From positions 806,001 to 870,000 of the forward strand of contig JAGTXK010000027.1 of assembly GCA_019096195.1 (NCBI GenBank): a DNA stretch of 64,000 nt. Direction: 5' to 3'. The DNA comes from Boletus sp. NGJ. Taxonomy: Eukaryota; Basidiomycota; Agaricomycetes; Boletales; Boletaceae. The notes under the pieces were generated by a model. It made no database searches. It was not told the origin of the DNA and worked only from the letters and a program-made list of their open reading frames with translations. This document shows, one piece after another, positions 18,859 through 62,910 of this stretch; the first letter of the stretch is position 1, and each line of letters opens with the position of its first letter. The position numbers were made by a program, and so were the translations under genes.

Positions 18859-18989
18859 TGGAATGTATTTTTATTCGTTATTCCGCTTTGACTTTTCACG
18901 TTTTCTGACCTCAACGCGTCGATTGCTCATCACGATATCTAATGTTAATACATGTCACGAATAGCACTCGTAAACCAAGAATTAATGTC

Positions 18990-35060: not shown

Positions 35061-36263
35061 CATACAGTATATGAGACAGCAGGGGTGTTGATGTTTGCTA
35101 TTCAAAGGCAGTGCACTCTGCCTGCTGATGGAAACAGTGCAGACGTATTTGCTGCATATCCTTATTTTCCAGCCAAACTATACTCCTCCACCCTTTGTGA
35201 TGTGTTGGAAAGTGTCCAAATTGGATTGGTCACAGGCCATTATGCACAGTGGGTGCTTGAGGAAGACTTTGTGGTAGTTCTTTTGTTAAGTTGGGTATGA
35301 AACTTGTCTTTCATGTTGTGATTGCACTGATTTTTTACTTCACTTAGAATTAGACTATTTCATGCAGATGGCAAAACCATATGTAGGATTCATTGATAGA
35401 TATCCATGTACACTTTGCTTGTCTTGCAATGCAGCGGAACATATGTAGGACCCATTGATAATGTCCACTTCATTGGATTGTCTCATAATGTGTACATTTG
35501 ATGTGGCAGAACCATATGTAAGATTTGTTGATAATGTCCACCTCGTCGGACTACCAATGGAAACCATGTAACTTACTGTGGGTAAAGATCAGAATGAACA
35601 GCCAGCGAGAATGTGCTCTACCCCCTTGCCTCCACTCTCCCACGAAGGTGAATATAGGTGTTGGGTACTGAAACCTGGAGAGTACATATTTGATGCCAGC
35701 AATAGTTGGGATGCTGACACTTACCCAGGATGCTTTTATGCCTGACTCAGGTATATTTGCATAGGTCGGGGGCACAATTGGGATATTGGAAACATAAGCA
35801 GGGGATGGTCACACTCCACATGGGAGATAAATAGGTCATGAGAGGGTCCTCATTGGACAATGATCAGGCAGGGGTTTTTGTCATTACCACAATTTTAAAT
35901 ATTGCCAACACATTTGTTTCCAGTTTAAACTTCAAAAATACCCCTAGTTTTTTTGTTTGTCTATATTTCAAGTTCTGGCTACCGTGCTACACACAATAAA
36001 ATTTGAAGTATTGTCAAGGAAAGGGTGTGAATCATATACTTAAAGTTATTGATTTAGTATAGTTTGTATTCAAACTTGTTATTTAATCCAATATTTAATA
36101 CGAGAAAGGATGTCAGCCTGCACTTGAAGTTTTAACCAGCATGCAAAATGCCACGTAAATTCTAAGTTTTACTATGGCACAATTGTTAAACTAAACTTCA
36201 ACTACTGTCTTCACATTTTGCACAACATTTAAACCTATTCTAAATATTGGTTTTTGCGTTGTG

Positions 36264-36509
36264 TATGTTGTTTCATCAGCAAATTAACACATTGCTTACT
36301 TCATGCCATTGCCCTTCAGGCACCCCTGGCCCCGAGAATGGACAGAATTAGACTCGTTATGAAGCAAATAATTTTTATATTGTATGTACTGTGTTTGTAA
36401 TATCTAGCTTGAAAATCATGGCCATGATTGACAGGATGGATAGAGCCCTCCATGCGGTGTGGATGAAAGTGAAGTACATGGCAAGTTGTGTGTTGCCTCA
36501 TCTTCTCTA
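36264..36509 (-). mobile_element. Probable continuation of the interrupted LINE
   Basis: A 246-bp piece between the long-TI element and the foldback element. Removing the long-TIR element with one TAT copy joins it to the LINE coding end at 31985 in an open frame for about a dozen codons (QHINSLLKTL across the joint), which supports the view that both pieces were once one LINE. Further upstream the frame is closed, so this part is decayed or non-coding. Confidence 0.4.
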
Positions 36510-39500
36510 CATCAGTAAATACAGGATTTCATCATAGTGCTCATAGTGCCATAGTAGTTTCATAGATAACTCATAGTATTCATAGTATCCATAGTATATT
36601 CATAGTGTGCATAGTATCATAGTATCATAGTACCATAACATTTCATAGTGTTAATAGTGTTCATAGTGTCATAGTATTGAAAGTGTATTCATAGTATTCA
36701 TAGTATATTCATAGTGTGCATAGTATCATAGTGTCATAATACCATAGCATTTCATAGCATTCATAGTACATCCATAGTAGTCATAGTCCTAGTAGTAATT
36801 TTAAGCTAATCCTAAACCTAAACCTAAATCAAAAGTATACAAATAGTGTAGTCAAAGGTGTAGTCAAATGTTGTACAAAAAGTGTAGGAAAGAGTGTAAT
36901 ATAGTGTAGCAAAAATGCGCACCAAATGTAGCAAAAGTGTAGCAAATAAAGTGTAGTAAAAAAAAGCAAACAAAAGTGTAGCAGAGTGTAGTACAGTGTA
37001 GTCACAAAGTGTACCAAAAGTGTAGACCTACATTCCAAAAATATTCAAGTCCATTTTCCCACACTCAGTGTTAAAAAAGCGGACATATTTTTTCCAATGT
37101 TTGTGCCACCATTCTTAATAAACAAGTCAGACTTCAAAAACTTTTCCACACTCTCTTGTTTTTTAATTTTATCCTTCTCTACTCATTACATGAAGTCAAC
37201 ACTTTATTTTGTAAATCATTAGGATTGGGATTTGGATTTGGATTGGAACTGGGACTGGGATTAGAATTAGAATTAGAATTAGAATTAGAATTAGAATTAG
37301 TAGAATTAATATTTGATTGAATTTGAAATTAGAATTGGCTTGAAATTGAATTAGAATTAGAATGAGAATTAGAATTGCTAAGCCACTATGGAAGCACTGT
37401 GTATACTGTGGCATCCACTATGACCACACCATGAGACACTATGAGAATACTATGGGAATACTATGACCACTATGAAAGTACTATGAGAATACTATGAGAT
37501 ACTGAGAATACTATGACAGACTATGGCCACACTATAAACAGACTATGAGACACTGTCATAGTACTATCAAACCACTATCCAGTTGGACCCTCACTATGAG
37601 CACTATGTTACTGTCCAGTACTGGACAGCACTGGACAGTTTGTTCTGTTTTTACTAATGTTATCTCACCATTGGAGCATTGTTGGGAGTTGCCATGAGTC
37701 ATCATGTCTCATGTCATTGATGGTGGCCTAAAGATTCATTTCTGGCGGAAGTGAGTGTGCATGTTTGTACTGATCATTATAATCATAACCTTGTGTTTGT
37801 TCTTCAGTAATGGCATAAGTCTCACATACTTTGCAAAGTGACACTTCCCACTAAGAATGAGGCTATTCTTATCCACTGTTTGGTCAAATTGGAAGATATA
37901 AGAATGTGGTTGTGCAATGGAGTACACTATATCACAATGGCTCTGCTCTGAACACAGTACAAATTTCATATAATATAAAGCTGTCCATCCTTGTCGATGT
38001 ACTATTGTATTGCTTGCTGGTAATGTACAATCATTTGAGTTCGGATATCATTGATAATCTTATGGGTGGACATTCAGTTGCATGCCACAGTAGTGCCACA
38101 GATGAGGTGAAGATGCTGTTACTTCATGAGCATGTTTGTTTGCCATCTACAGGTTGTTCTAGCCTTGTCCAGTTTACTTGTGTGTGTTCTGACCCATCTT
38201 CATTTGCAAAATCAATCGCCTTGCCAGTAAGGGTTGAAAATTATCATCTTTTCCCTCAGTTGGCCTCTGATTCATTGCAAATGGTGATCATACATGAATG
38301 GCAAGATCACATGAGTGCTGATGCCCAGCATTGGAAGCCTTGTGCAGTTTGTGCTCAACAGTTTAAAGGAAGTGACATCCAGACAATTTCTTCTATCTCT
38401 CTCAACCTCATGTTACTCAGAAATTCTTTATTGCATTCTAACATTCTACTGCAGACATATAGTTTATAAGCCTATGATGGAGCTATCTTGTATGGCAAAG
38501 CTCTGCATGTACCACAGATGCATGGAGATATTGACATTTGTGCTTCTTGTTTCCATTCATTGCATTTTCACCACAAAATTCCTCTAGATGCTATCACTAA
38601 CTTCTAGTATTATACTCATGTGAGCAAGGCATTTCATAAAGCATCAACTTTTGATTTACTGTTAGTGGCAAGAGCGAGGGCAATGCATGTCACATATCTC
38701 TTGTCAGACAAGCTACAAATACCTACTGGTTCATCAGTGTTGCAAGGTTATGTGAAGGGGAACATAGTGATACTTCCTCAAGACTTGCTGCACTTGCATG
38801 ACATTATTCCTTCATCCACAGATCAACAAAAGTGTGCAATGTGTGCTCTGTTTGTATCCTCTCAAACGAATATCTTAAAGGATATTCTGAAGAGTTATCC
38901 ACCCATGCTTGTGAACAAGTTGATAGTTCACACTCTTGCCCAATTTTTGGTGTTGGATAATGAGTGGTATTAAGAAGGTGTGACTGTTGACAAGCGAGTG
39001 ATTAATAACTTACATGATGGCCTGAGTGATGTTGGCTTTCCAAGGGTAGTACATTAGTAAAAACAGGACAAACTGTCCAGTGCTGTCCAGTACTGGACAG
39101 TAACATAGTGCTCATAGTGAGGGTCCAACTGGATAGTGGTTTGATAGTACTATGACAGTGTCTCATAGTCTGTTTATAGTGTGGCCATAGTCTGTCATAG
39201 TATTCTCAGTATCTCATAGTATTCTCATAGTACTTTCATAGTGGTCATAGTATTCCCATAGTATTCTCATAGTGTCTCATGGTGTGGTCATAGTGGATGC
39301 CACAGTATACACAGTGCTTCCATAGTGGCTTAGCAATTCTAATTCTCATTCTAATTCTAATTCAATTTCAAGCCAATTCTAATTTCAAATTCAATCAAAT
39401 ATTAATTCTACTAATTCTAATTCTAATTCTAATTCTAATTCTAATTCTAATCCCAGTCCCAGTTCCAATCCAAATCCAAATCCCAATCCTAATGATTTAC

Positions 39501-40237
39501 AAAATAAAGTGTTGACTTCATGTAATGAGTAGAGAAGGATAAAATTAAAAAACAAGAGAGTGTGGAAAAGTTTTTGAAGTCTGACTTGTTTATTAAGAAT
39601 GGTGGCACAAACATTGGAAAAAATATGTCCGCTTTTTTAACACTGAGTGTGGGAAAATGGACTTGAATATTTTTGGAATGTAGGTCTACACTTTTGGTAC
39701 ACTTTGTGACTACACTTTTATTACACTTTTGGTACACTTTGTTTGCTACACTGTACTACACTCTGCTACACTTTTGTTTGCTTTTTTTTACTACACTTTA
39801 TTTGCTACACTTTTGCTACATTTGGTGCGCATTTTTGCTACACTATATTACACTCTTTCCTACACTTTTTGTACAACATTTGACTACACCTTTGACTACA
39901 CTATTTGTATACTTTTGATTTAGGTTTAGGTTTAGGATTAGCTTAAAATTACTACTAGGACTATGACTACTATGGATGTACTATGAATGCTATGAAATGC
40001 TATGGTATTATGACACTATGATACTATGCACACTATGAATATACTATGAATACTATGAATACACTTTCAATACTATGACACTATGAACACTATTAACACT
40101 ATGAAATGTTATGGTACTATGATACTATGATACTATGCACACTATGAATATACTATGGATACTATGAATACTATGAGTTATCTATGAAACTACTATGGCA
40201 CTATGAGCACTATGATGAAATCCTGTATTTACTGATG
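36510..40237. mobile_element. Foldback element with ~1.15-kb CATAGT-repeat arms enclosing a Helitron fragment
   Basis: Two inverted arms, 36510..37660 and 39051..40237, begin with CATCAGTAAATACAGGATTT and are almost identical apart from one insertion of about 30 bp. Each arm consists outside-in of CATAGT/CATAGTATT repeats, TAGCAAAAGTGTAG-type repeats, an AATTAG microsatellite and a segment with repeated CCAGT(A/G)CTGGACAG. The 1.4-kb centre is unrelated to the arms. No transposase and no clear target duplication are visible. Such foldback structures are usually non-autonomous; the near identity of the arms suggests recent formation or gene conversion. Confidence 0.75.
37880..39040 (+). pseudogene. 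Helitron helicase N-terminal (DUF6570-type) fragment
   Basis: Between the foldback arms the plus strand encodes pieces of the conserved N-terminal region of basidiomycete Helitron proteins: HWKPCAVCAQQFKGSDIQTI, then (about 38480-38600) a Cys/His stretch with ICASCFHSLHFHHKIPLDAI in a shifted frame, and DLLLVARARAMHVTYLLSDK with LQGYVKGNIVILPQDLLHLH (38620..38973). The family pattern is CxxC, a second CxxC, then (F)xLxLVxRARxxxxxY and GxVxGNVxxxPQD. The Rep and helicase domains are absent. The frame changes between the pieces, so the fragment is inactive. Confidence 0.65.
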
Positions 40238-40984
40238 AAGGGAAAGTATCAAGCAAATGTGACAATGATGAAAAGTGCATAAGCACATTACCACCCACTG
40301 GCCATAAACGAACACTGGCAAGAGGCATACAGTACTGTAAATGCCCATGAAATTGAAAGATTTACAAAGTTGGTGATAACCAATAACATGTTTGTTGACA
40401 ATGTCCACATCAGTATGAACGTCCACAGAAATGTCCAACATGACCTCAATGACCAACTGGTTTGCAAACATCATTAACATTGAAAGGGAAAATGGCAGTG
40501 AAAGCAATTTAGAAAGAACCCTCAACCCTATTATGTGTAACAACCCTATAATGAGATTAAGGTTAGGTTCCCATTAAGCCAAGCCAAGCATTTCCACAGT
40601 TGCCAAATTTTCTGCATTCCCATGCATTTATGGGTTGGAAACCTGTCCCCTCTGGGTCCAGGAATACTTACTACTTATTATCTACTTATCTGAGGAATTG
40701 CTGTTTGCCAAGCCACAAGTCAATCTAAGTGCTATTTCAAGTATGCTTAAGTTGCCGATGCACACTGCCAAGAGAGTATTTATCAAGTACATAGCAAGGC
40801 CAATACAAGGAGCTACAAGTATAAATATTAGTTAAAAGGTCTGGTGAGGATGAAGAGCATTACAACACAGTTTGAGTGCCAGCACTCAAGATGAGAAACT
40901 TTGGTTGGTGGTGGGGCTCATCTCAGTGGGAATCAGAGGAGAAGACCAGTTGTCCACAAAAAAGCATCACAAAATATCTACCTA
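40238..40984. other. Unassigned mobile-DNA stretch
   Basis: AT-rich sequence between the foldback element and the Plavaka-like fragment. A minus-strand open stretch at 40229..40543 overlaps the foldback end and has no motif I recognise. Probably the remainder of an older element. Confidence 0.4.
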
Positions 40985-43279: not shown

Positions 43280-46200
43280 TTACCCCCTTTTCAGTGGTTG
43301 AACTCCTGGTCAACCGTGATGCTGGAAAGCATTGGTTCCAAACCAGGCTGTGGAATCTCGAAGAGGTGGTCAGATAGGTGGTTGAGAGAGGTGGCATAGG
43401 CATGAAAGGAGCTGTTGGCGAAGAGGGTGGTTTGGCGTGTACACATTGGGCAGTCACATGTTTTGGTGAAGGAGTGGATGGCTGAGGGGTTGAAGGTGTG
43501 GAACTTCTTGATGAGCTTCGAGGTGTTTCCAATATTCACCTTGGGTTCCCAGGTGCGTTCCTCCCGTGGATAGCCCTTTTAGTGTACAAGGTATTCTGTC
43601 TTCCCTCTGCGTTTCCTCGAGTCAACCACTTCTTGTACCTCATGCTCCTCCTCTTGTTGGACGATCACCAGGGGCGGCAGCTTTGGCTTAGCTTGGGGCT
43701 TCATGGTTCTGGTATGGTACAGTGTGAGGAGGGATTCATGGAAGACGGGGTGGATGCCTTGCCACGTCTTCGGGATTTCCAACTTGTATGATGCCTCACC
43801 CACCTTCCATTTCCCTTTGAAGGGGCCATACCATTTGTCATTGAATTTCTTCGTTGGTCAGTCAGTGCGGATGTGAGTTCCTTCGAGAAGGACTTGTTGG
43901 CTGACTGTGAAGTCCAGTGATGGGGCAGCTTGCTTGTCGTGACTCTTTTTCATGGCCATGGCTGCTTTTTCTAGCGCACTTTTGGCTGCCTCATGGTGAC
44001 TCTTCATCTTTCCCATGAATTCCACAGCCAACTCGTTCTGGACCTTGACCCACTTGTTGGGGATCAGGGGCTGCTGTCCATAGTTGAGTAAGAATGGTGA
44101 CATGCCAGTGGCACTTGTCGTCTGTGAGTTGTGGGTGAACTCTGTAAGTGGGAGCCATTCCGCCCAGTCAGTTTGCCTGTGATTCACATACACCCGCAGG
44201 TACTTTTCAACCTCTTGGTTGACTTACTCTGTTTGCCCGTTGGTTTGCAGGTGGTATGCTGTGGATGGGTTGGCTTTTATGTCTAGGAGGGTGTACAGGT
44301 CTCTCATGAACGAGGACACGAACTGTGCACCTTGATCCAATATGACCTTCCGGGGGGTTCCGTGGAGCTTGAATACCTGGTTGCAGGAGACAGTGGTGAC
44401 CCCTTGTGACATGATGGTGTCCATTACTGGGGTGAGGTGGATCATCTTTGAGAAGTGATTGACTATGATGAGGATCACATTCTTCCCTTGTGACTGTGGA
44501 AGGGGGCTGATGAGGTCTACAGAGATGATCTCCCATGGCAAGGATGGGATCTCGTTTAGGTGGAGGGGTGTGTAGATGGCAGTGGTTTTGGCCTTCACCT
44601 TTTGGCACACATCGCAGCCTTTGATGTACCCCTTGTCTTTTCGGAGTGATGGCCAGTAGTACTCACTCATGATGAGGTCGCGTGTCCACTTCATGCCTGG
44701 GTGCCCTGCAATTGGGTGGTTGTGGTTGGCTACAATGATGTCTTCTTGCAGCTTCTTGTCATTTGGGACATATGTGAGGCCTTTCCACATTACGAGCCTG
44801 TTTTTCCTTGTCCAATGGGTATCGTCCCATGTGAGCCCTTCTTTTGTGAACCTTTTGAGTTTGTACTGCAGCTTTGTTATTTTTGAGAGGGTGCTAGGTG
44901 GGGTGACTGCACTGATGGAAATTGGTGACAAGGGTGGTGAAAAAAGGGTGTTGGGGAGGAGGGTTTGGGTGGTGTTGTCATGTTCCACCCCCTTTTCAAA
45001 GTCTGGCCTCTGGGACAGAGGGTTGGTGGAGTTTGTCTTGCCCGAGTGGTGAGTGATGGTCAAGGAGTACTCCTGAACAATCTGCTGCCACCAGGCCTGA
45101 TGGTAGGAGAGGTCTTGGGGGTAGTGGAAGAACTTGAGGTTTTTGTGGTTGGTGAGGATTTTGACTGGGTGTGCTGCGTCAAGGAGGTATTGGTGCCACT
45201 TGTTGAGGGTGTAGATGATTGTGAGCATCTCGAGATCCACCATGTGATAGTTCCTCTCAGCGTCATTGAGGGAGTGGGAGATGAAGGTGATGGGGTGCCA
45301 GGTCCCATCGTGCTTCTGGAAGAGCACCATGCTGATGCCAATGCTGGAACTGTTGATTTCAACCTGATAGGGATCATTGTCGGTGGGCATGGTGAGAGCG
45401 GGGGCGCTGGTGATGGTGGTTTTGAGGGCTTCAAAAGCCTTCTGGCAAGCCACCGTCCAGATGAAATCCTTCTTTACTGATGTGAGCGCGTTGAGCAGGT
45501 GCACTATTATTGCGAAGTTTTTGACGAATCGTTGGTAGAAGTTGAGGAACCCGAGAAAGCCTCAGAGTGTCTTCTTGAACATCGGGACGGGCCAGTTGGC
45601 AATGGTGGAGACCTTCTTTTCGTCCATCCTAACCTTGTCTTGTGCAACAATGAGCCCTAGGAACTCGGTTTCCTGGACTTCGAAGTCACACTTATTGTGT
45701 CTCAGGTATAGGTGGGTGTCTTGTAGTATTTGTAGTACTTCTCATACTACCTTTCGATGCTCCTCTATCATCCTCGTGAATATCATGATATCGTCAATGT
45801 AGATGACCACTACACCTCAGTCTACCAACTCCTTGGACAACATGTTCATCATCATCTGGAATGTTGTGGGGGAGTTGGTAAGCCCGAAGAACATCATGAG
45901 GGGCTCAAAAAGTCCATGGTTTGTCTGGAAGGTGGCCTTCCATTTGTCTCCTTCTGCCATCCATACATTGTTGTACCCCCACCTCACATCGAACTTTGTG
46001 TAGTATCTCACCACTTTCAGTTTGTCAACGAGTTTGACAATCAGGGGGAGGGGGTATCAATTATGACAGATTACCGCATTGAGCTTGCAGTAGTCTTGTA
46101 TGGGGCGGAGGTGTCCATCCTTCTTTTTGATGAAGAAGAAGGCTGATGCGAAGGGGGACTTAGAAGGGCATATGTGCCTGGATTTGAGGTTTTCCTCAAG

Positions 46201-49200
46201 GAAGGCATCAAGCTCCTTCTGCTCTCCTGGATTGAGAGGGTACACTTTGCAGTCCACCTCATGGTTTCCGGGGAGCAACTCAATCATGTGATCCCATGGG
46301 TGTCTCAGGGGGAGTGTGTCGAAGCTCTCTTTTGCAAACACATCCTTGAATTTGTGGATGTATTTGGGTGCCACCTCCTCAAAGGTTTTCTTTTTCTTCT
46401 GGGCATAGTCCTTAATGGCTACTTCCGTGGTGACGTTACGTATATACTTGTCGTTATCCAGTCGGAATAGCCAGTCCCCTTGCGAGGGGGTGAAGTCCTT
46501 GTCCAGTTCATCATCTTCATCATCGACCAATGCGGTGGTGTGGTCGTTTCTGCATTGGAACGAAATCTGTCCAGTCTTCCAGTCAATGGCTGGGTTGTGC
46601 ATCTTTGACCAGTCGTGTCCAAGGAAGATGGTGTTCAGCCCCAGGTTGGTTACTGCCAGGGTGATCTGCTCCTTGTGGTCCTGGACCTGGAGTTCAATGA
46701 TGACAAATTTTTCGATTTTGCCTCCGGCATTGGCAGTGCCATCAGCATTGTACATGGTCAGGGTGTGGGGTAGCACGTGCATCTGCACCCCCTTTTCTGC
46801 GATGAAGTCCTCATGGATCAACGACCCTGTGCACCCAAAATCAATGAGTGCCTTGACTTCTGTTTGTTCTCCGCTTGAGGTACTTAGTTTTACAGAGATC
46901 TCGAGGGAGTTTCTTCTTATTGTGCATGGGGATGCTTTTCGGAACCAAGGGGGGTTCTGCAGGTCTCTCAGTGCCCAGTATGCATTATCCATCATCATTT
47001 CTCAAAGTTCCCGAACAAGGTCCCAAGACACTTTGATTGTCCTGGTGTCGTGAATGAAGGACTTCAGGTGTCTGATGCTATGCTCCACATCAGAGTGCTC
47101 CACCTGAGCCTTCATCCATCACATGGACCAGGGGTCCAGCATGTTTAGCCAGGAACAAGAGGACGTCTTCTCCTTTCGTTCAGGTTCCTTGGGGTTTCTT
47201 CATGGTATCATCCGCGAATCATTTGGCCTGTTGTCTTTCTTTACTGACGGATGGAACACTACCTTCCATTCAGCTTTGGGGTGTTCCAGGATAGCAACTT
47301 TCTTTACTTTTGGGAGGTTCACCTGGGCCTCCGTCGACTCAGCCTCATCAGTGCATAGGATGGCAAAGTGGTTTCCTTGCAATGACTTATTGTAATGTAC
47401 AGCAGAGTGGCTGGTATCTACTGTATGAGGAGAAAAGACAAGTCCTCATTTACATCAGAGGCATACTCTACTGCGGGGTTTGTTTGTTTGGCATCCATCA
47501 TCATTGCCCTTATTCTTTTAAACATCTCTAGGGCTACTTCCTGCCTGTTGATTACGATATCCCTTGCTTGACGAGGGCGAGGGCACAGAGGGTGGTCAGC
47601 GCAAGGCCAGGGTTTCAAGCATTTGTGGCAGACGCCAGCTGTGTGCACTTTGTTGAGCTCCATGGGAGCGCATTGACCAGTGAAGGTGCTGGTCGCATTT
47701 GGGTGAGGTTTGGCTACAGGAGCGGCCATAGCGGTGGGGGGAGGACTGGCAGAAGGTGTGTAGCAGGGCCAGGGGACGAACTGGGGGGAGTATACAGGCC
47801 CAGTCGCATAGACCGACCTCTTTCTGTCAGTGATTTCAGTGAGGATGTCCGCTGCTTTGACTAGAGTGGTCTTCCATTGGTGTACATCTGTTGACTCAAT
47901 GAGGATGGGCTGGTTGCATTCCACAAACTCCACCACATCTGAGTGGACTGCCCTCCTCATGAGGTCGACCATGACACAGTCGTTGTACTCAATGTTGAAC
48001 TCAGCCTCCTCAGTGTAGTGGTAAAGTTTGGTGAAGTAGTCCTCCACCGTGTCTTTCCCCTGCTTGAGGGCCATGAGTTTCTGTTGTGCAACCCACTTCA
48101 GGTTGGCTAGTTGGAAGTTCTTTTTGAGCTTCTCCTCAAAGCTCGCAAAGGTCAGGATGTGGACAGCCCCCTGTGCCATCAATCATAAGGTCCCCGAAGT
48201 GTCTGGCTGGGTTGCTACTGTGGAGGTGGGAGAGGACAATTAATATTTTTTGGTAGTTGCAGGGGGTCGTCTTGAATCTGGAGAGGTAGAGCTTCATCGT
48301 TTGCCACCACAACATGAACTTTTCTTTGTTGCTGTCATAGTACTCTGGCTTGGCAGCAAGGGACTTTCCCAGCTTGGGAGAGGGTCCGGGGAAGCCCCGT
48401 GCTGGTGTTCGGGGGGCTCCAGGGGATGGCAGGGAGCTGGGGATGGACGGGAGTGGGTGTTGTGGCAGGGATGGCTGAGGTGGTAGCATTTGTTGAGTAA
48501 GGTTCGGTGGGGGAGGAGGCGGTGAGCCACGTCCCGACCAGGTCCATCAGTGGGATGGGGTGTTGTCAGTGGAGTATAGGGTTCATGGGCATGATGGGGG
48601 TGAGGTGAGGGGGCACCAGGGGTTGAAGGATGCCTCAAGCCAAGGCAGTCATCGGGTTGTGTGGAACTGGCACTTCCACTGATGATTGGGTGGGGGTGGC
48701 CAATGTGTCAACTCTAATTTCCCCAAGTGCCATGGCCATTTCCCCGAAGGTACTCTGATGGGACGGGCTGGGGGTTGGCACAGGCGAGTTGAAGTAACTC
48801 ATTGGTTGTCAAGGAAGAAGAGGAGGTTTGTGAGCACCTCAACAAGTATGTCGTTGGGTTGGATGGGTCATTGACAAGGTCACTGAAACAGGCGATGTAG
48901 GAGACAAAGGCATGTACCACGCTGACGGGGCGTGGTGGATAGAGACCAGTGAAACTTGTGCCAGGAGCAGCCAGCAATGAGTGGAAGTGGGGGATGGGTG
49001 CGACCTGGCAGCGCTCAGCAGCATGCCTGGAATCACACGGAATGATGGGGGAGGGGGATCTAGGGAGAGACCCTTGATGAGCGAGTGTAACTTGGGCGTG
49101 TATCACAAATGCCAATGGATCTTTTCTAGACTGTTGGAGCAATGGAGGGGGGACAAGGCAGATGCAAAGAGTTGGAGTCAATGGTCCTCTGATCTCCTTA

Positions 49201-50308: not shown

Positions 50309-53300
50309 TCAGGTGTTTCTGGCAGGGCTATTGGGTTCCTTTTGGGCACGAGATGGCTTGCTAGTTGATTGTGCTGGAGAAGGGGAATGAACAGAACATT
50401 TCCTTGCTGCAGGCTTCTTCTGGCCCACCTCTATCTTGCCTTTTTTCTTTCTGCCATCGACAATCTTCTCTCCTTCATTCACAATCTTCTCCCCCTCAGC
50501 TGTGGCCTTCTCCATCTCAGCACTACTGCCCAGCTCAAACTCCTCTGGTGTCTCCTCATCAGCAACCTGGGATGGGAACTTACCAATCATTTCCTTGATG
50601 ATCTTGATGACTTCTTCAGCCCTTTCCCTTCTAAGGAGAGACTCTTGAAGGAACATTGGAGAGTTTTCATCATCATCATCCACCTCCACCGCCCTCCAAC
50701 ACTCCCACAAAAGCAAATCAAAAGCAAGGACCATAGGAGTATCTTTGTTGCGATCCGCAAACACATACTTGCGAAGTAAAACCAAAGCCATGTGAAACTC
50801 ATCCCTCTTGGCATGAATATCCTAGGGAAGATACTTATGGCCCCAATGCCAAGATGCCCAAGCAGTTAAACTGAGCTTTGACTTTGGGGCCAAGAAGGAA
50901 GATTAAGGGGCAGCCTTATGTATTAAGGATAATCAGATTAGTACATATGCATGAAGACAAACAAAGACTTACAAAAATCGGCAATGTCAACATACCATCC
51001 AACAAAGTCTTGTAAGAGGGGTCAAGAGACAGGCTGTGTAGGAACTTTGGCCTGTCACTGTCATTTGCTACAGAACTCTGGTCCTTAGGGACAGCTGGCT
51101 GCTGTCCAGAGAGACAAGGACACTTGAATGGTGGAGGTCTGACAGGGGATGCTGACATCCCCTTATTCTTATCAACTCCATCCTTACCTTTCCCAGCACG
51201 CCCATCCAGGTCATCATCACCTTGATTGTCACCTAACTCAATCTCAATATATGGCTTCCTTTTGTTGACAACCTGAAGCGCCTCCAATCTAGCAAATAAC
51301 CCCAAGTCTTGCCTTCACACCTTGATGAATATCAGGATGGGCACCTTGACCTTTGCCCATGCTGCCCAGTGGGACCAGAGGTGGCTGATCATCACCTTGG
51401 TCAACTTCAAGGGGTCCAACACCTCAAAACCTTTGGAAATGGTATCAGCATCCAGATACTTGGTTGGCATCCTGGCCAGCTCCAGCCAAGGCACATGGAT
51501 CTTGTCATGCTTGGTGATCCTCACTAGTCGTAATTAGAATATAATAGTTAGCAAGAAAAAAATGTACTGACTGTATACTTTGGTAAAAATATCATATACA
51601 ACATCTTGCCATGACTTCAGCTGGACAGCATGGCATGTTGGGAGGATTGAATGGCTCAAGGCATCCACTGCAACCTTTGGGACCTCTTCCTCCTTGTCAG
51701 ATGAACTCTCTTTCTCTTTCTCTTTCCCCTTCTCCTTTTCAGAAGTCTCATCTGAAGCATTTTAGTAGTGTAAGATAGACAAAATTCTTATCAGTCAGTT
51801 ATTGTAGTACTCACCTTCATTGGCCATAAAACCAGCCAGGAGTTCAGCTCCCTGCTTGGCCCAAGCCTTGCAGTCATTGAATGAGACTGTGAAGTGGTGG
51901 TCTCATTTGCCACCATGGATATTTGTCTTGATACTACAGGGGAAATTTTGAATAAGAGCCAATATACTTCAAATCACTTACTATAGTGCTTTGACACTGG
52001 CACCAGAAGCCTCATAGCCCTGTAGGACTATACAGTGAACCCCCATAGTATGGTGTAAAGCATCAATAAGTTCAACTGTTTTATTTTGAAGGTCCTTCTT
52101 GTGATAACTAAGCAGAAATCAGTTGAAAGCCCCTTCCAAAACAATAAATAACACTTACACAAGCATTTTGTCCTTGTTTGGAGCACCCTCAAAGTTCCAC
52201 TTTGCAATGGCCTTCTCTGCTTCCTCCATTTTACTCTTGGGAAGTTTGTTGAACCATTTGTGGATAGTGACAGTGCGATTCCCAAAAGTCTTCTTATTTG
52301 TCTTGTTTTGAGACCCACCATCAATCTGGGCTACTTCATCTGCAAAAATTTGTTGAGCAATGCAAAAGGTATCCCATGGGGTCCAGTAATCCCCAGCATC
52401 ATTTGGTCTTGCAGCAGCCTCACACTCCTCAGGGGTCATATCTTCACCACTTTCCTCAAGCAGCACTAACCTCAGTTCTTCTCTCTACCTGTCAGCAGTG
52501 TCCAACCAAGGAAGGAATTTCCTGCAGATTGCCTGCAAAATTAATCATCAATAAATCAGTAGTAGGTACACAAACATGTAACTCCATGAATAGAAAGACT
52601 TACCCAACAGAGAAGTTGGGAAAGCTCAATGGCTTGGTTTTCAAGCAAGGGAGACTTTGTAATGACATCCTGGCAATCCTTGAGAATTTGTGCATGAGCA
52701 GCAGGGTCCCCACAAGCCTCAATGTACAGCTGGGCATATTTAGCAAGGGTTTCAAAGAAAATCACACACCAATCAGCAGACATGATGAGGGAATTGGTGA
52801 GTTGGAGCAGTATGGGACGAGGGCAAAAATGTGTGAGAATTGGCAAATTGCAGTACTATACCTGCAACACATCACTTGCATACCAGAACCATGATGTCAT
52901 TGGCTCCCTTTTATCTATGCAGTACTATACCTGCAACACGTCACTCGTGTATCAGAACCATGACATCATTGGCTCCCTTTTATCTACTGTATCAATCTAC
53001 CAATTCCATCCATTATGAGATCAGATACAATCCAAGACTACATACACTCTTGCAAATTAAGTTTCCAACCGATAATAAACTTCAACCATCCACTAGTACA
53101 TCCCCCATGTTCCCTCCTGGCACTCAAAATAACTGAATCCAAAGGGTGCATGACCTGAAAAGAGTAAGGCTCTTTGAGGGCCTTACCATCTGCCTTACCA
53201 CAGTTCTGATTCTTGCATTCCAGCCTATAACCCTGGATCTGTTTCACAAAAACCAAGGCCCATAGATCAAGTATCCCATATTGTGGGCACTGCAGTGGCA

Positions 53301-54615
53301 AGGTCTGGCCCCATGGTTGATAGTCCCGATGGGCCCAGGAATACTTGATGATGCACTCTGCAAAGTGGATGATGGAGGTATGCCTTCTCAATGTCATACA
53401 TTGCTTGAGGGAGTGTTCAAGGGCTTGACTAAACTCAAAGCCATGAATAACAACAGACTTGATGACTTTCATCAACAAATTCACCATATTCACAGTAGAA
53501 AGATACTTCACATCAAATGCGAGAGCATCTCCTACCCCCAAGCTAATGGAAAACATACTTAGTAATATATTGGACCGAAACATGAAACTTACCTAACCAA
53601 GCCTTGTCTCAGCCCAGCAAGGGACTTGAAGTTGTTGACCACAGCACCACAAGCCAACATAAACAGGATACAGCCATTGAGTATAGCCTTGAAGGGTCTG
53701 AGAATATCCTCAAGCCACTGTTGGATTCAAGGTGAATGTCAGTATGAAAAGATAAAATAGATGAGTACTCACATTACTGACCACAGCTGCACAAGTATTG
53801 CCATGCTCATCTTGTCTGAGCCACAGATTGCCAGTATTGGGGTCAGAATGCATGGTGATGAAGACAATGACATGCCTATATCTAGAAAGACTGGCCATGA
53901 GCTTGGCTACTTCGCTGTGCCAGTCATCGAGCACTCCATCATGGCCAATGTTGAATGGGATGTCAATCACCCGAAGTTGGTCATCTTGGTAATATTCAGC
54001 CAGAAGCTGATCCACCATCATGAAATGGGCAATGCGGTGGATCATATGGAAGTGGAAATGGAGGAGGAGAGTGGGGGGGGGAAAGCACAGTGGTATTTGT
54101 CATCGTTTTAAAGGTTCCTCGCACCTTAAGGAAGTTGTTAAGGATCTGTTTGTCATTGATAGTGAATCCCTTTAAAAGATATTTACATGTTAGCATGAAC
54201 ACGAGAAGCAATAAAAAAACTTACAACATACAAGAGGCCCTTTCCTCAATCCAATTTCCAGTGGCATGAGATGCAGTGGAACTTGACATTGGGGGCCTCC
54301 AGCTTGCTGAGTTCCTCAGGTGGAATTTCGATGCAATGAGCACAAATGGTGCACTCACAGCCTGGCTCATCACATTCTCAGAGATTTCCCCCATCTTGAC
54401 AGAGGGAACAATGCTATACAAAATCAAGCCATCATTGTGATTATAAATATACCACAACAAGTACTCACCTGAATATCTGAAGACAATCTAGCTTGATGTG
54501 TTTGAGTGGCAAGACCAGGTTTGGGCCAAGAACACATGACCTCAGGCCATACAAGCAGCATGCGTTTGGCTGTGCCACCGGTGGTCTTCTTTGCTATTTG
54601 CTTGGTATGAGTCAT
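50309..54615 (-). pseudogene. Decayed gene with histone-H3-tail-like N-terminus and PHD-like finger
   Basis: Exon 1 (54615..54469, 49 codons) begins MTHTKQIAKKTTGGTAKR, closely following histone H3 (ARTKQTARKSTGGKAPR after Met): T3, K4, Q5, A7, K9, T11, G12, G13, A15 and R17 are kept. A GTGAGT...TATAG intron leads in phase to exon 2 (54413..54225) with CSLCQDGG, ECDEPGCECTICAHCIEIPP and FHCISCH, a C4HC3-like PHD pattern. Further exons follow: VIVFITMHSDPNTGNLW (about 53870), FKAILNGCILFMLACGAVV (about 53670), WGQTLPLQCPQ and CKNQNCGKADG (53150-53330), a second conserved region (DYWTPWDTFCIAQQIFADEV at 52380; VPWLELARMPTKYLD at 51440) and an acidic/basic low-complexity end. Two TGA codons in exon 2 stand where Trp would fit. 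From memory, related proteins of unknown function are common in Agaricomycetes. It may be one gene or two adjacent ones. Confidence 0.65.
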
Positions 54616-54859
54616 GTTGGAAGGGCTGCATCTCACAGTCATAGTACTGTAAATATGTTGACTTGTCCCAAAAAAAGAACCAGTCATGTGCAAGCCAAAT
54701 GCAACATGGCACTGTGTGGGAACTGATCACAACACATCACACACAATCAACATTATCACATGCTCAGGCAACGCCAGACACATATAAATGTTTGGCAACC
54801 ATAAGCAATGCTTTCCTGGCAATTTTAATTCTCACACTCTTTTCTTTTTACCTCCTGTC
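54616..54859. other. Upstream region of the H3-like gene
   Basis: Probable former promoter/5' UTR of the minus-strand gene; AT-rich, no ORF of note. It ends at the first solo LTR. Confidence 0.4.
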
Positions 54860-55864
54860 TGAAAGGAACTTGCAATGAACAGAAGAAAGAAACCTAGACC
54901 TAATATCTCAAGCATTGCCAATTAAGACAATATGCAAGAGAGAGAAAGGCAATTTCAAGACTAGGTGAAACATGGTACTCTACCGGCTACTTATATACTA
55001 CCAATAGTGGCGCACGGACTGTGCTGTACTATGACATCATGAGTACTGGGTATGACATCACAGGAACAAGAAAGTGTTAGTGTCCAATAGCGAGAGTATC
55101 TAGGGGAGGAATGAGATGCGTGTAGTATGCACATGTAAGTGGGATGTAGTCCGGAGCGTTCTAGACGCAGCTACATGTGATATACTAGAAGGAGCTAATA
55201 AATAGTGACAGAAAAGGAAACAAAAGGGGAAATCCAAGTGCAAGGCTTCCAGAGGGTTCCGGGAGTGGTTCTGGTCGGAATGCTCGGAATGGTTCCAGTC
55301 GGAAATGTGGGATGGTTAGAGCATTCAGAGTGTGTACCCTGATAAATAACTTGTTGATCTAGTGTTGCTTGATCAGTACTTGAGGTGGTGTATAATGGGT
55401 GATCTATGGCATGAGCTGAGGATCAAGGATCAAGCAGGGGAGTCAAGGATCTGGAGGTAAACTCCTGATTAGTACTTGTGTAGCATACCAAGCACTGCTT
55501 CAGGTACAGTCTACGGGCCTTGTATGAATACCAAGCACTGCTTCAGGTATATCCATGGAGTGTTGCAGTTTAGAGGCATGCGGGCCTATGCTTGTGGCAA
55601 TGAGCACCAGGGTTAGCCGTGAGGCTCCTTGGTGTCGTATGTGTAATGGGTACGACAAGGGTACTACCAGTGAAGGTGTATGTAGGTGTAGTCGGTGGTG
55701 TGGTGTATCATATGAGGGAGAATACGATAAGTGACTACTCTAGGTGTATGCGAGGTAAAGCTAGGATGGAGTTTGGTGGATGGTAGGCGAGTGCATCATC
55801 TATAGGTAGTGTGAAGGTGTAGAGGGGTGTTAATAGATAATGGGTATCAATGGTGATTGTTTCA
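54860..55864. mobile_element. Solo LTR 1
   Basis: 1005 bp starting TGAAAGGAACTTGC and ending TTGTTTCA, flanked by 5-bp direct repeats CTGTC (54855..54859 and 55865..55869). No internal retroelement sequence adjoins it, so it is a solo LTR left by recombination. It is of the same family as 56140..57220. Confidence 0.82.
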
Positions 55865-55869
55865 CTGTC

Positions 55870-56139
55870 GCAGTATACAACAAAGTGTCTGTTACCTTTC
55901 AAAGTGTGTTTTTCCCTCATGTATTCACTAGCTAATCTTACCGGGTTAGGTGTGGGCTTAGAACCAGGCAAGGGTTGGTGTGTTAGGACACTAGTTCCAC
56001 TCCCACCCTTGCTTCTTCTTGTTGGTCAAGGGCTATGCAGGGTCAGTGTGTTGGGACACTAGTTCTGCTCCCACCCTTGCTTGCTTCTACTTTGTTGGTC
56101 CAGGACTTTGTGGGGTTGGTGTGTTGGGACACTAGTCCC
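55870..56139. repeat. ~75-bp tandem repeats between the solo LTRs
   Basis: From about 55970, two to three units share GGTGTGTTGGGACACTAGTT and CTCCCACCCTTGCTT plus TTGTTGGTC. The array is interrupted by solo LTR 2 and resumes at 57226 with CTCCCACCCTTGCA and TGTTGGTCGAGGG. Confidence 0.65.
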
Positions 56140-57220
56140 TGAAAGGAACTTGCAATGAACAAGAGAAAGAAACCTAAACCCAATATCTGAAGCATTGCTA
56201 ACTAAAGCAATATGCAACAGAGAGAAAGGCAATTTCAAGGCTAAGCGAAACATGGTACTCTACCGGCTACTTATATACTACTGATAGCAGCGCACGGACC
56301 GTGCTATGCTATGACGTCGTAGGGTACTGGGTATGACATCACAGAAACGGGGAAATGTTAGTGTCCAATGGCAAAAGGGAGAAATGGTGGAATGAGATGC
56401 GTGTGGTGTACGCATGTAAGTGAAAGGTAGTCCGGAGCGCTCTAGGCGTGGCTACGTGTGATATATCTAAGGGGGAACTAATAAATAGGAATGGAAGCGA
56501 GAGGCGAAAGAAGAAATGAAAGGATGATGCGTAAGGCATCGCATAGGGTGATCGTTGGATCTGGTATCGAGACGGGATCGTATCGGGTGATAGATCGGGT
56601 CTTGTCTATGGGTTGTGATCTGATGTTTGCCTGATCAGTACTTGGGTTAATCTAGCGTGGGCTTGATTAGTACTTGGCAGCATGAGGGGTGATCTACGGT
56701 GTGAGCCAGGGATTGGGGATCGAGCAGGGGATTCGAGGATCTGGAGGCGAGCTCCTGATTAGTACTTGTGTAGTGTACCGAGCTCTGCGTCAGGTACTGT
56801 CTACAGGGGGACGTGCATGTAAGGAGCGTATACGTGACAGAGGGGTTTCTGTCATCGTACAGCGTTACGTCACGTGTTGTGGCTACCGAGTGCTGCATCA
56901 GGTAGATCCACGAGGGGTGGCATAGTTTATAGGCGTGCGGGCCTTGCTTGTGGCTGTGAGGCCAGGGTTTAGCCGTGAGGCTACTTGGTGTCGTAGTGTA
57001 GTGGGTGCAACTAGGGTACGGCTAGTGAAAGCGTACGTAGGTGTGTGCGGTTGTGTGGTGTATCGTATGGGGGAGGATACGGTGAGTGACTACTCTAGGT
57101 GTATGCGAGGTAAGGCTAGGATGGAGGTTGAGTGCGGTAGGCGAGTGTATCGTCTGTGGGTAATGCAAAAGTGTAGATAGGGGTGCTAATAAATAGGTGA
57201 TATCATTTGTGATCATTTCA
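56140..57220. mobile_element. Solo LTR 2
   Basis: 1081 bp starting TGAAAGGAACTTGC and ending GATCATTTCA, flanked by 5-bp direct repeats GTCCC (56135..56139 and 57221..57225). It is clearly homologous to solo LTR 1 over its length but diverged, so the two inserted independently and are not a pair. Confidence 0.82.
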
Positions 57221-58047: not shown

Positions 58048-58081
58048 TGGTAATGGAAATGGGACTATAAGCAGTGATGTC

Positions 58082-59934
58082 CTAGTTGGCCAGTGGGTCG
58101 GCCACAGCATTGAGTTTCGATTCCGCCTCTTCCCATGCCTGCAGCCCTCCGCTCATCGCACCCATGGCATTCCATCGTCTGAGAATCTCCTGTTGGATTG
58201 TCTCCATGCCCTCCCTCTCATACGCACTCACGTCCTTCTCATCTTTCTCGTCCTCCTTTCTCGTCCCATCATAGTACCCCGGTTCTAAGAACATGTACAG
58301 CCATCCATTCGACAACGAAAGGCTCGCGAGAGAACGAGCGAACGGGAGACAAATCTCGTCATAAACCCGGAGGGCCTCTGGGACGCGAGAGAGCGTTGTA
58401 AGAGGATGTGCGATGAGCCGGCCAAGTACAAATGCATCCTAGACGTGTATTGAGTGACAACAGGTGAACAAAAGGAACTATGAATGGGACACACGTCGAT
58501 CGCTTGGCCCGCGCCGGCACCACAATGAGGTGCCATGGCATGACACTGGGAGATCATCGGTCATGGAATGAACGCGCCTGTAACGCCCGATCTGAGAAAG
58601 ACACACCGCATCTCCGATAAGTGCAACCCTATTTCGTACGCAAAATGGAAGTGGTTTCACGACGTGCAGCGCCCACTTGGATGGCTTCTCGCAGAGCTGT
58701 AGCGGGTGTTATTTAGACTGACAAGATTTGATCAGGGTGGAGAAAACCCACCTTCAACAATGTCCTCACGCCAGGTTCAAAGTCGTTGAAGGATTCAACT
58801 AGCTCATCACGACTCCCGTCAGATACCCAGTGTCCTTTGTAGTGCGTGCCCGTCAAACTCGGATCGGTTATGTATGCCCCAACGTTGATGAGAGTGCCTT
58901 TGGCAATCGGATAGGTAATACAGTACTGCAAATGGGTGAAGTGTGAGTCTGAATGAATGTGACATGAAACATGTTTACCCTGCCCTTTCCGTGATACTGT
59001 GAAGAATGAGGTGTGGGTTTGTGCACATGCGTAATTGCCTGCTCACAAATGTCATGTCCTTCAAAGCTGGATTCTCTGGGTTTTCCTTCTTCAACATCTC
59101 CACAGGGATGAGCCAACGATTTACTGTTATCCCAGTGAAAGTCGCGTCTATGTATTGCTTAAGATCTGTCTCGTCGCCACTGTTCTTGTCCTCTGATGCT
59201 GCTTCAAACATTGTCTTGCGAACTGCTGAGCGAATTCCATCAGCTCCAATTAGTACATCCGTGGTCGCAGTAGTTCCATCCGCAAAGTTAAGTATGACAG
59301 GTGACGTCGAATGTGCATCTTGTTGTTCTGGTTCCATATAACTGACGAGCCGCTTCTTTGGATGCACTGTGCACGAGGATGGCAGGTGCCTTTCGAGGAT
59401 ACCTACCATATGCTGACGATGCATGGAAGAGGGACCATCTTTATTCATCTCCATGAAGCATGTCTCTAAATGGTGGAATACATAAACACTTACTACTGCG
59501 ATAGACATTGTGGCGCCAGATGTATCCGCCCTCGCGTATGTCTGATCGCCTCACACAGGGGCCTGTGGCAATGGTCAGAACCAAGACACCACATGGATCA
59601 AGAATCGAATCACTCACTACGGCTACTGTTGGGATCATGCGTGAAGATTTGTTTGAACTCGTCGAACAGCCCAAGCTCGATAATAACTTCCTGTGTACGC
59701 CTCCATACACTAATTCCTACACCAGCAGAGTCGATGGAGTCGTGCGCTTCATATAGATTAATGGGTATGGAAGGATCATATTTTCCGATCGTAATAGCGA
59801 GGACAAGACCGCCGATGCCAGCGCCGCTAGAAAAGGACTTGAATGGCATGACCGAACGTGACCGGGGTGGCTACGCACCAGATGGCAACACGGAACTTGG
59901 GTCCCGACTCAGATGATGAGAGCGAAGCTGACAT
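58082..59934 (-). CDS. FAD monooxygenase copy D (salicylate hydroxylase-like)
   Basis: ATG 59934 to stop 58082, same nine-exon plan. GAGIGGLVLAITIGKYDPS gives the FAD-binding GxGxxG; exon 4 has MHRQHMVGILERHLPSS and VLIGADGIRSAVRKTMFEA; exon 5 is the 18-nt YHGKGR exon; exon 7 carries VRNRVALIGDA; exon 8 CHAMAPHCGAGAGQAID; the end is KLNAVADPLAN. The donor of intron 2 is shifted slightly compared with the paralogues (GTGAGT after SSR), still in phase. No frame break was found. It is the first copy on the right of the mobile island and its downstream flank is truncated there. Function as for copy E. Confidence 0.85.
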
Positions 59935-61060
59935 TGTATTGTAATAGAGTGATGAGAATCAGGAGAGGACATCTGACCTGCGGAAAGACCCAGTCCCTTT
60001 TATGTCGTTCATGAATTCTATATAACGAATCATTCATGAACTTGGCTGTTCGACGCGCAAATAATTGACGTGATTCTGATTACACGGTTTGGAGCGATTC
60101 CAGTACGACGATGCGATTGGGACGTAAGCGGCATGAGTCAATACAGGCTTATGCCGGCAATCGTCAGGATTAGTGTGACGACACACAACTTAGAGAAGAA
60201 AATGCGGTGGTGGTCCTGGACGTAGGCCCATCAGTGGCATTGCGTCGCGAAGTCAAGTTTGGTAAGTAAGTCGAGAGGCGGCCATCCCATAAGCTGCCTA
60301 GTATGGCCCACTATCATGAGTAAATCAAGTTCCGCACAGTATGATTGGAAAGCAATTGCATTCCTGGTCCGCGCTTTGATCCATGCCTCTCTCGGCGAGA
60401 CTGGAAATGTCTGATAGTACCTGTTGTAGGCTATGGTAGCAACCATGGTCAATGACTCCATGCCAAGAGTGGTGCTCGCTGAGAAATCCCGTGGACTGGT
60501 CCACGGGATCTCCACCTTGACGACAGACCGAGGGACATAATAGTTAACCGGCACTTCTGGCTGAAATTGCCAACCGTAGCTCAGCAGCACCATGTGACTT
60601 GAGGGAGGGAAGGCTATCTTGTATGTAGCTCCCAGTATGAACGCTTCTCTGAAAGCCGTGACGAATCCGGGCTTGGAAGAGTCGGTGGGTAGTAATGCTC
60701 GTCTGAATCGTTGGCAAGTAAGCACAGGCTGTCAGTGTCACGGTGGCAAACAAAGACCCTATGGTGGTCACGTGCAGATAGGGATTTCTTTGGCGAAATA
60801 CGTGCATAGAAGCTCGGGTAGTCATGACTTCAGCGAAACAACTAGTACTGAGGAAGAAGAGCTAAATAAGTACTCTTGTAAGTACTGGATGAGAAACTGT
60901 CTCTTGAAAATCGGAGGTTCAGAGATTTGATCTAAGGGACTGGATTTTTCTTCTTCTAATAGCTGTTCATTCTGACAATTATAGTCTAACTCCACAGGCA
61001 GTATATGGGAGTACCTAACGGTACTTGTGTAGCAATCGAAAAGGGACTAGCAGTAATGTC
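59935..61060. repeat. Spacer D-E of the monooxygenase array
   Basis: It contains the conserved block upstream of copy D, the small ORF at 60231..60825 and, at about 60880..60935, a short relic of the permease last exon (TAAGTACTGGATGAGAAACT) just before copy E. Confidence 0.55.
60231..60825 (-). CDS. Small unknown ORF repeated with the array
   Basis: The minus strand reads MTTRASMHVFRQRNPYLHV from 60825. After a possible 23-nt gap (GTGCTTACTT...CAG, too short for a normal intron) comes an open run of more than 150 codons: PGFVTAFREAFILGATYKIA, SSHMVLLSYGWQFQPEVPVN, TSPRDFSASTTLGMESL and AIAFQSYCAELDLLMIVGHT, stop at 60231. A decayed counterpart is seen in spacer B-C (24266..24931). I do not recognise the family. 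It may be a real small gene, or a remnant of a gene captured in the duplicated unit. Confidence 0.35.
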
Positions 61061-62910
61061 CTAGTTGGCCATTGCGCCAACCACAGCGTGGAGCTTTGAT
61101 TCTGCATCCTCCCATGCCTGCAGCGCTCCACTCGTCATATCCACAGAATCCACTCGTCTAAGAATCTCCTGCTTGATGGTCTCCATGCCCTCCCTTTCAT
61201 ACGCACTGATGCCCCTCTCATCCAGGTCGTCTTCCCTTCTCGTCCCATCATAGTACCCCGGTGCCGCGAACAGGTACATCCATCCGGTCGACAACGAAAG
61301 GCTCGCGAGAGAACGAGCGAACGGGAGACGAATCTCTTCATAAATTTGGAGGGCCTCTGGGACGCGAGAGAGCGTTGTAAGAGGGTGTGCGATGAGCCGG
61401 CCAAGCACAAATGCATCCTAGACATGTCTTGAGTGAGAATGGATAGGCAAAGGAGCTAGAGATGGGACGTACTTCGACCGCTTGGCCCGCCCCGGCACCA
61501 AAGTGAGGCGTCATGGCGTGACACTGTGGAATCATCGATCATTAACTGGACATGCCCACATACCCGATCTGAGGAAGACGCACCGCATCTCCAATAAGTG
61601 CGACCCCCTTTCGTACGCAAAACGGAAGCGGCTTCACGACGTGCAACGCCCACTTGGACGGCTTCTCGCAGAGCTGTAGCAGGTATAACTTAGACTAGTA
61701 AGTGTAACTGGTGTGGGGAAAAGTCACCTTCACCAATGTCCTCGCGTCAGGTTCGAAGTTGTCAAAGCATTCAACTAGCTCATCACGACTCCCGTCGGAT
61801 ACCCAGTGTCCTTCGTAGTGCGTGCCCGCCAAGCTTGGATCGCTTATCATTGCCGCAACGTTGATGATAGTCCCATTGGCAATCGGATAGGTCAGACAGA
61901 ACTGCGAATAGGTAAAATGTGTGAATCTGAATAAATGTGACATGAAGCATGTTTACCCTGCCCTTTCCGTGATACTGTTTCACAGCAGATGAGGTGCGGA
62001 ATTGCGCACACGTGTAATTGCCTACTCACTGCTATCATATTCCCTAAAGAGACATTCTCTGGGTTTTCCTTCTTCAACGTCTCCGCAGGGATGAGCCAAC
62101 GGTTTACTGTTATCCCCGTGAAGGTCGCTTCTTTGTATTGTTTAAGATCTGTCTCATCACCACCGTTCTTGTCCTGTGATGCTGCTTCAAACAACGTCTT
62201 GCGAACTGCTGAACGGATTCCATCAGCTCCAATGAGTACATCCGTGGTCGCAGTGGTGCCATCCGCGAAGTTAAGTACAATAGGTGACATTGAGTGTATA
62301 TCCTGTTGTTCTGGTTCTATGTAATTGACGAGCCGCTTCCTGGAATGAACTGTGCACGAGGCTGGTAGGTACCTTTCCAAGATAGCTACCATGTGCTGAC
62401 GATGCATGTAAGAGGGATTATCTTCACCCACCTCCGTGAGAATAGGTCTCCAGATTGTGGAATACATAAGGACTTACAGCGATGGACATTGTGGTACCAG
62501 ATGTATCCACCCTCGCGTATGTCTGATCGCCTCATACAAGGGCCTGATGCCGCGGTCAGAACTGAAACCGACATAATCGAGGATCGAGTCACTTACCATG
62601 GCTGCTGTCGGGATTATGCGTAAAAATTTGTTTGAACTCGTCGAACAGCCCAAGCTCGATCATTATTTCGTGGGTCCGTCTCCATAGAGTAATTCCTACA
62701 CCAGCAGTGTCGATGGAGTCGTGCGCTTCGTATAGGTCAATGGGTATGGAAGGGTCATATTTTCCGATCGTAATAGCGAGGACAAGACCCCCGATACCAG
62801 CGCCGCTGGAAAGGGACTTAAATGGCATGACCGAACGTGAGGGTGGCTACACACCAGATGGCAACACGGAATTTGGGTCCCGACTTAGATGATGAGAGCG
62901 AAGCTGACAT
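61061..62910 (-). CDS. FAD monooxygenase copy E (salicylate hydroxylase-like), best-resolved copy
   Basis: Nine exons, all in phase: 62910..62855, 62805..62597, 62543..62478, 62421..62030, 61974..61957, 61901..61728, 61673..61584, 61523..61473, 61417..61061; 470 residues. Motifs: FRVAICGAGIGGLVLAI (GxGxxG, residues 14-30), VLIGADGIRSAVRK (DG motif, about 175), RKGVALIGDA (GD motif, about 333) and CHAMTPHFGAGAGQAVE just after, a glycine-rich loop over the flavin. This is a class-A flavoprotein monooxygenase close to salicylate 1-hydroxylases: NAD(P)H reduces FAD, O2 forms the C4a-hydroperoxide, and an aromatic ring is hydroxylated, often with decarboxylation. No signal peptide is seen, so it should be cytosolic. 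Exon 5 is only 18 nt. Substrate is inferred from family only; a role in breakdown of plant or lignin-derived phenolics would fit. Confidence 0.9.

Follow-up and report, generated by a model that had tools for sequence, protein, structure and literature searches.

We identified, in the 64-kb stretch of DNA analysed here (hereafter the window), a decayed gene whose predicted protein opens with an imitation of the histone H3 tail and continues, in the next exon, into what appears to be a PHD-type zinc finger, a pairing supported by unguided searches and by controls. The combination is unusual, and it rests on one dead copy. As far as we know, most described histone mimics are viral, and the few in cellular proteins act in trans. 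If a cellular protein combined a mimic with the reader that matches it, one could ask directly whether the enzymes that mark histones also modify a switch outside histones, and what keeps reader fingers closed when they are off chromatin. With an H3-like start and a finger of the H3-reader type in the same protein, an interaction between the two would be the simplest explanation. Our working interpretation, which we hold tentatively and with somewhat less than even confidence, is that the protein reads its H3-tail mimic with its own finger, in cis, and that this gates the C-terminal domain; the gene would belong to a fungal family, probably of mushrooms, in which this copy has decayed.

Sequence and script analysis of the window places the H3-like start in a minus-strand gene of at least five exons, of which exons 1 and 2 only make up the range (54225-54615) covered by an earlier sequence-only reading. 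Exon 1 (54469-54615; 147 bases, 49 codons; sequence MTHTKQIAKKTTGGTAKRMLLVWPEVMCSWPKPGLATQTHQARLSSDIQ) is followed by a 55-base intron (54414-54468, phase 0) with GT-AG ends (GTGAGT...GTATAG), and its join to exon 2 (54225-54413; 189 bases, 63 codons) is in phase, which bears out the earlier claim that the next exon is joined in phase by a clear intron. On the same strand, intron 2 (54170-54224, 55 bases, phase 0) leads to exon 3 (53773-54169), intron 3 (53718-53772, 55 bases) to exon 4 (53593-53717), and intron 4 (53543-53592, 50 bases, phase 2) to exon 5, which runs to its stop (53038-53542) and encodes a second Cys cluster, QCPQYG...ECKNQNCG. The frames are compatible at every modelled exon junction, and all four introns (55, 55, 55 and 50 bases) are GT-AG. 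Introns of such short length are compatible with a basidiomycete.

The copy had also been described as decayed, and the exon model agrees. Exon 2 contains two in-frame TGA codons, the first inside the finger (54378-54380) and the second after it (54246-54248), and the open reading frame of exon 3 switches near a run of nine C (54073-54081), after which it is open through to the exon 5 stop. The frame shift at the C-run could alternatively be a sequencing slip, an explanation that does not extend to the two stops of exon 2. Given these two stops and the change of frame in exon 3, the copy is non-functional as read.

Upstream of the gene lies a repeat of about 1 kb (54859-55864 and 56139-57220), whose two copies share one orientation and whose pieces are 76% and 81% identical, while pieces of an apparent next gene, with an in-frame stop and no Pfam match, are found downstream on the same strand (52302-52783, minus). 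Elsewhere in the window, pieces of a Gypsy-type retrotransposon (44227-48182, minus strand) include gag, aspartyl protease, RNase H and integrase domains, of which the aspartyl protease and the integrase core fall below the Pfam cut-offs. Two pairs of inverted copies are also present, 31985-32847 with 35412-36266 (98% identical) and 36503-37675 with 39039-40244 (96% identical). A stretch with FAD-monooxygenase-like frames is present in five copies (18983-20270, 22112-23400, 25265-26565, 58077-59363 and 61054-62339), the last four having 82-91% identity with the first along roughly 1.3 kb; in the one frame tested the Pfam family FAD_binding_3 was below cut-off (E 0.0067).

The protein of exon 1 opens with MTHTKQIAKKTTGGTAKR, which aligns from the Met, in register and with no gap, to histone H3 (54562-54615, minus strand; Met plus H3 residues 1-17). 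The ten identities to the H3 tail that had been listed from the sequence (T3, K4, Q5, A7, K9, T11, G12, G13, A15 and R17) are all present, giving 10 of 17 positions, and K8 and T10 are conservative changes relative to H3. The first two positions differ, with Thr in place of A1 and His in place of R2. Among the 2928 ATG starts on both strands of the window, this start has the best H3-match score, 50 against 19 for the next best. At the composition of the window, the chance of such a score is 1.5e-10 per ATG, or about 4e-7 over all 2928 starts; at the composition of exon 1 itself it is 7.4e-9 per ATG, and in 500,000 shuffles of these residues the score was never reached. Moreover, with exon 1 as query, phmmer gave 119 matches among 177,635 PDB sequences at E up to 10 (best E 0.0066), and the 60 of these that were listed are H3 or H3 chimaeras.

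The H3-like sequence at this putative very N-terminus is beyond chance. The coincidence of its Met with the Met of H3 argues for the translation start inferred at 54615, yet several upstream ATGs exist, and two of them (54687 and 54642) are in frame and open into exon 1. Pfam searches of exon 1, exon 2 and exons 3-5 gave no match to a histone family, and this result, together with a zinc finger as the next exon, indicates that the protein is not a histone.

We make no claim that exon 1 represents an H3 tail up to residue 43, as a first reading had it. Against their own shuffles in the H3 register, residues 19-43 gave a permutation p of 0.0015 and a composition p of 0.01, for a length picked after the alignment was seen; p was 0.036 with a free end point and 0.47 when the register was free too, and an equally good match to H3 was seen for 76 of the 1963 open-frame 31-mers that the window contains. 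In light of these three controls, the H3 likeness of exon 1 past residue 21 appears weak and is only suggestive.

Exon 2 encodes, in order, HCSLCQDGGNL, the first premature TGA, ECDEPGCECTICAHC and, later, FHCISCH. The predicted PHD/ADD-type zinc finger (54261-54413, minus strand) comprises nine Cys, at codons 2, 5, 14, 19, 21, 24, 27, 47 and 50, and a GGNL loop, and its assignment draws on PDB matches and shuffle controls. Eight of the nine (all except codon 21) fit the PHD/ADD spacing of CxxC, C, C, CxxC and CxxC, and we read these eight as the likely ligands. In describing the cluster as C4HC3-like, the sequence-only reading was right about the Cys/His cluster, which has PHD/ADD spacing, but not about the fifth ligand, which we read as Cys and not His (C-A-H-C). 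In the printed alignment with ATRX, CAHC of the query lies over CKKC, with Cys as the fifth ligand in both, and by our reading the cluster is probably ADD-like rather than strict C4HC3.

When exon 2 alone was searched against the PDB with X in place of the stop, eight matches were obtained at E up to 10 (best 0.065), to an NSD protein, ATRX (three times), SIZ1, AIRE (twice) and SP140. Prefixing the last six residues of exon 1 raised the count to 14 matches, with CHD4, CHD5 and NSD2 chains added, and improved E for seven of the original eight (for example, ATRX from 0.25 to 0.068 and SP140 from 2.2 to 0.13), while SIZ1 worsened from 0.86 to 1.3. Going by the molecule names that the search gives, we take the matched chains to be PHD/ADD proteins in every case, 8 of 8 and then 14 of 14. 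No PDB match to the finger is significant alone (best E 0.051, none below 0.001), and it is the uniformity of the match list, not any single E-value, that suggests similarity to PHD/ADD fingers. Three shuffles in which Cys, His and X were held fixed returned 2, 6 and 0 PDB matches, with no PHD protein among them. The cluster did not yield the PHD-profile match that its earlier description would lead one to expect, as 0 Pfam or NCBIfam families matched at E up to 10, a result weakened by the HMMER filters and by the premature stop inside the finger. Given that no curated profile matched, we refer to the finger as PHD/ADD-type, by resemblance, and not as a certified member.

Between its first Cys and codon 27 (with the stop at codon 12), the finger has no aromatic residue, five acidic residues and no Lys or Arg. 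An aromatic cage for K4me3 is missing, and the finger is similar to proteins that read H3 with unmodified K4. ATRX, AIRE and CHD4 are such readers of unmodified H3K4. By sequence, the finger groups with fingers that read the H3 N-terminus. The available text of PMC10124903 names AIRE as an unmodified-H3K4 reader, gives a description of unmodified-H3 readers that matches the no-aromatic, acidic make-up of this finger, and places H3 R2 in a negatively charged groove of PHD fingers. The changes of R2 to His and of A1 to Thr in the mimic should weaken its predicted binding to a canonical PHD groove; in this copy, the His and the Thr may themselves be decay.

In the cis mechanism that we tentatively favour, removal of the start Met would leave a free H3-like N-terminus, which would occupy the finger of its own molecule or that of a sister molecule, and the tail in the finger would hold the protein in a closed state. 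The mimic would be competed off by nucleosomal H3 whose K4 is unmodified, or alternatively released once H3 enzymes had modified Lys 4 of the mimic itself. In either case the C-terminal domain would be opened on chromatin. We infer, in this scheme, that intact members exist and are conserved, that binding takes place in cis and has a gating effect, and that the C-terminal domain is of the kind proposed below.

Exons 3-5, which would supply the C-terminal domain, were examined for likeness to caspase and CHAT proteins. Judged by eye, the succession of candidate strands and helices is reminiscent of the caspase/CHAT fold, as are a His that follows VIVFITM and a Cys that follows ILFMLA, the candidate catalytic His (53848-53850, minus strand) lying in VIVFITMHSD of exon 3 and the candidate catalytic Cys (53649-53651, minus strand) in ILFMLACGAV of exon 4. 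From this strand-helix order, the C-terminal domain is perhaps caspase/CHAT-like, and the tests were not supportive. The candidate His and Cys lie at a distance of 48, compared with 40 for the pair in the consensus of the bacterial CHAT sequences. In an hmmsearch with a profile built from the CHAT domains of 30 out of 32 bacterial loci, the query scored 0.8 bits and ranked 23 of the 689 sequences scored, out of a test set of 1002 (the query, its reverse and 1000 shuffles); the alignment sets the exon 4 candidate Cys on the CHAT Cys, at chance level. When hhalign was run against the same profile, 3 of 101 controls scored as high, and the best alignment fell elsewhere. No CHAT or caspase family was matched by exons 3-5 in Pfam, NCBIfam or PADLOC. 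Pfam gave one chance-level match, to RPN5_C (E 0.15, below cut-off), and a PDB sequence search gave one match, to succinylglutamate desuccinylase, an unrelated enzyme (E 0.67). With the family searches empty and the profile score not separable from shuffles, we keep a CHAT/caspase-like protease in exons 3-5 as no more than a conjecture drawn from the order of strands and helices. Single-sequence AlphaFold models of exon 2 (mean pLDDT 58.5) and of part of exon 3 (mean pLDDT 57.5) were too poor, and Foldseek searches with these low-confidence models found no match at E of 0.001 or better.

A more ambitious form of the hypothesis, which we regard as improbable, is that mushrooms possess a family of chromatin-gated enzymes in which a copy of the H3 tail is held by the enzyme's own finger, and in which the H3 code, on the nucleosome or on that tail, would switch a protease-like domain that may clip H3.

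Uncharacterised agaricomycete proteins with the same order of parts may exist, a lead rather than evidence. Within the window, tblastn found no paralogue of the gene pieces. Among viral contigs, protein-pattern scans with exons 1-2 matched two stretches, none of them confirmed as a relative, and scans with exons 3-5 matched one stretch, likewise not confirmed; a degenerate pattern for the Trp/Cys stretch of exon 5 had 0 matches there, as did an ATG-anchored H3-tail pattern, which would also catch ordinary H3 tails. In prokaryote genome contigs, the exon 5 Trp/Cys pattern had one match, on a Geodermatophilus contig (L001), which we take as chance. The lack of a relative in these viral and prokaryote collections is as expected of a fungal gene. 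In titles and abstracts of open-licence papers, a fungal architecture of H3 mimic plus PHD finger did not occur among the matches listed, and in the available text of a paper on fungal transposons (PMC12730594), the terms PHD, zinc finger, protease and caspase have 0 occurrences each.

Three other explanations may account for the same arrangement. The strongest, which we consider rather unlikely but a serious contender, is that the mimic acts in trans, as a decoy or substrate for the writers, erasers and readers of H3, while the protein's own finger separately reads nucleosomal H3 and the two do not bind each other. The retention of K4, K9 and the TGG stretch is more than a PHD finger would need, and would fit modification by H3 enzymes; SNAG-type H3 mimics, which act on LSD1, offer a parallel. 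Likewise, PAF15 carries an N-terminal H3 mimic that works in trans, according to the accessible part of PMC7060239. Against action in trans, the position of both parts side by side would be explained most simply by mutual interaction.

It is less likely still, and in our view unlikely outright, that the start derives from part of a genuine histone H3 gene, placed by exon shuffling or transposon capture onto a PHD-containing gene in this lineage only, with no functional design, and since decayed. The window does contain Gypsy-type pieces and other repeats, and residues 19-43 are weakly H3-like in register, a point itself weakened by the free-register control. There is also a precedent in several Dothideomycetes, in which a hAT transposon has captured H3 and multiplied it, but the available text of the same source reports that 94% of the copies in a banana pathogen match the third H3 exon only, and not the tail (PMC6710886). 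Moreover, under capture, an in-phase H3-like exon immediately upstream of a finger resembling H3-tail readers would be a coincidence. Finally, the likeness of a short basic stretch to H3 by chance, beside an ordinary zinc finger, is strongly disfavoured and very improbable: proteins of all sorts commonly have short basic stretches and a single copy was seen, but the chance value over the ATG starts of the window (about 4e-7), the failure of all 500,000 shuffles and the H3-reader-type finger in the next exon speak against it.

The cis interpretation, in which tail and finger belong to one switch, can be set beside several known systems. The finger's matches by sequence include ATRX, AIRE, CHD4 and SP140, and the ATRX alignment shares Cys as the fifth ligand. 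We know of no H3-tail copy at the N-terminus of ATRX, DNMT3A, AIRE, CHD4 or SP140 themselves. Compared with ATRX and SP140, the finger described here has two more residues between ligands 3 and 4, whereas its length in this segment is the same as in the NSD-type match. CHAT and caspase-like proteases are similar by eye in the order of candidate strands, His and Cys; family searches found nothing, and the profile tests stand at chance level. The transposon-amplified H3 fragments of fungi likewise represent pieces of H3 in unexpected genomic contexts; these are mostly third-exon fragments within hAT elements, as far as the excerpted text of PMC6710886 describes them, whereas here only the tail is present, in the first exon of at least five. 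PAF15 is, like the protein described here, a non-histone whose N-terminus imitates the H3 tail. In the available text of PMC7060239, that N-terminus is bound by a PHD finger, that of UHRF1, with a Kd of 2.2 uM, compared with 1.5 uM for H3. In PAF15 the reader is a separate protein, whereas here tail and finger lie in one polypeptide. The ADD domain of DNMT3A, in turn, occludes its own methyltransferase and is moved away by H3K4me0, as described in the accessible portion of PMC13109025. The order of parts in the present gene suggests that both ideas, mimicry of the kind seen in PAF15 and gating of the kind seen in the DNMT3A ADD, may be combined in a single chain.
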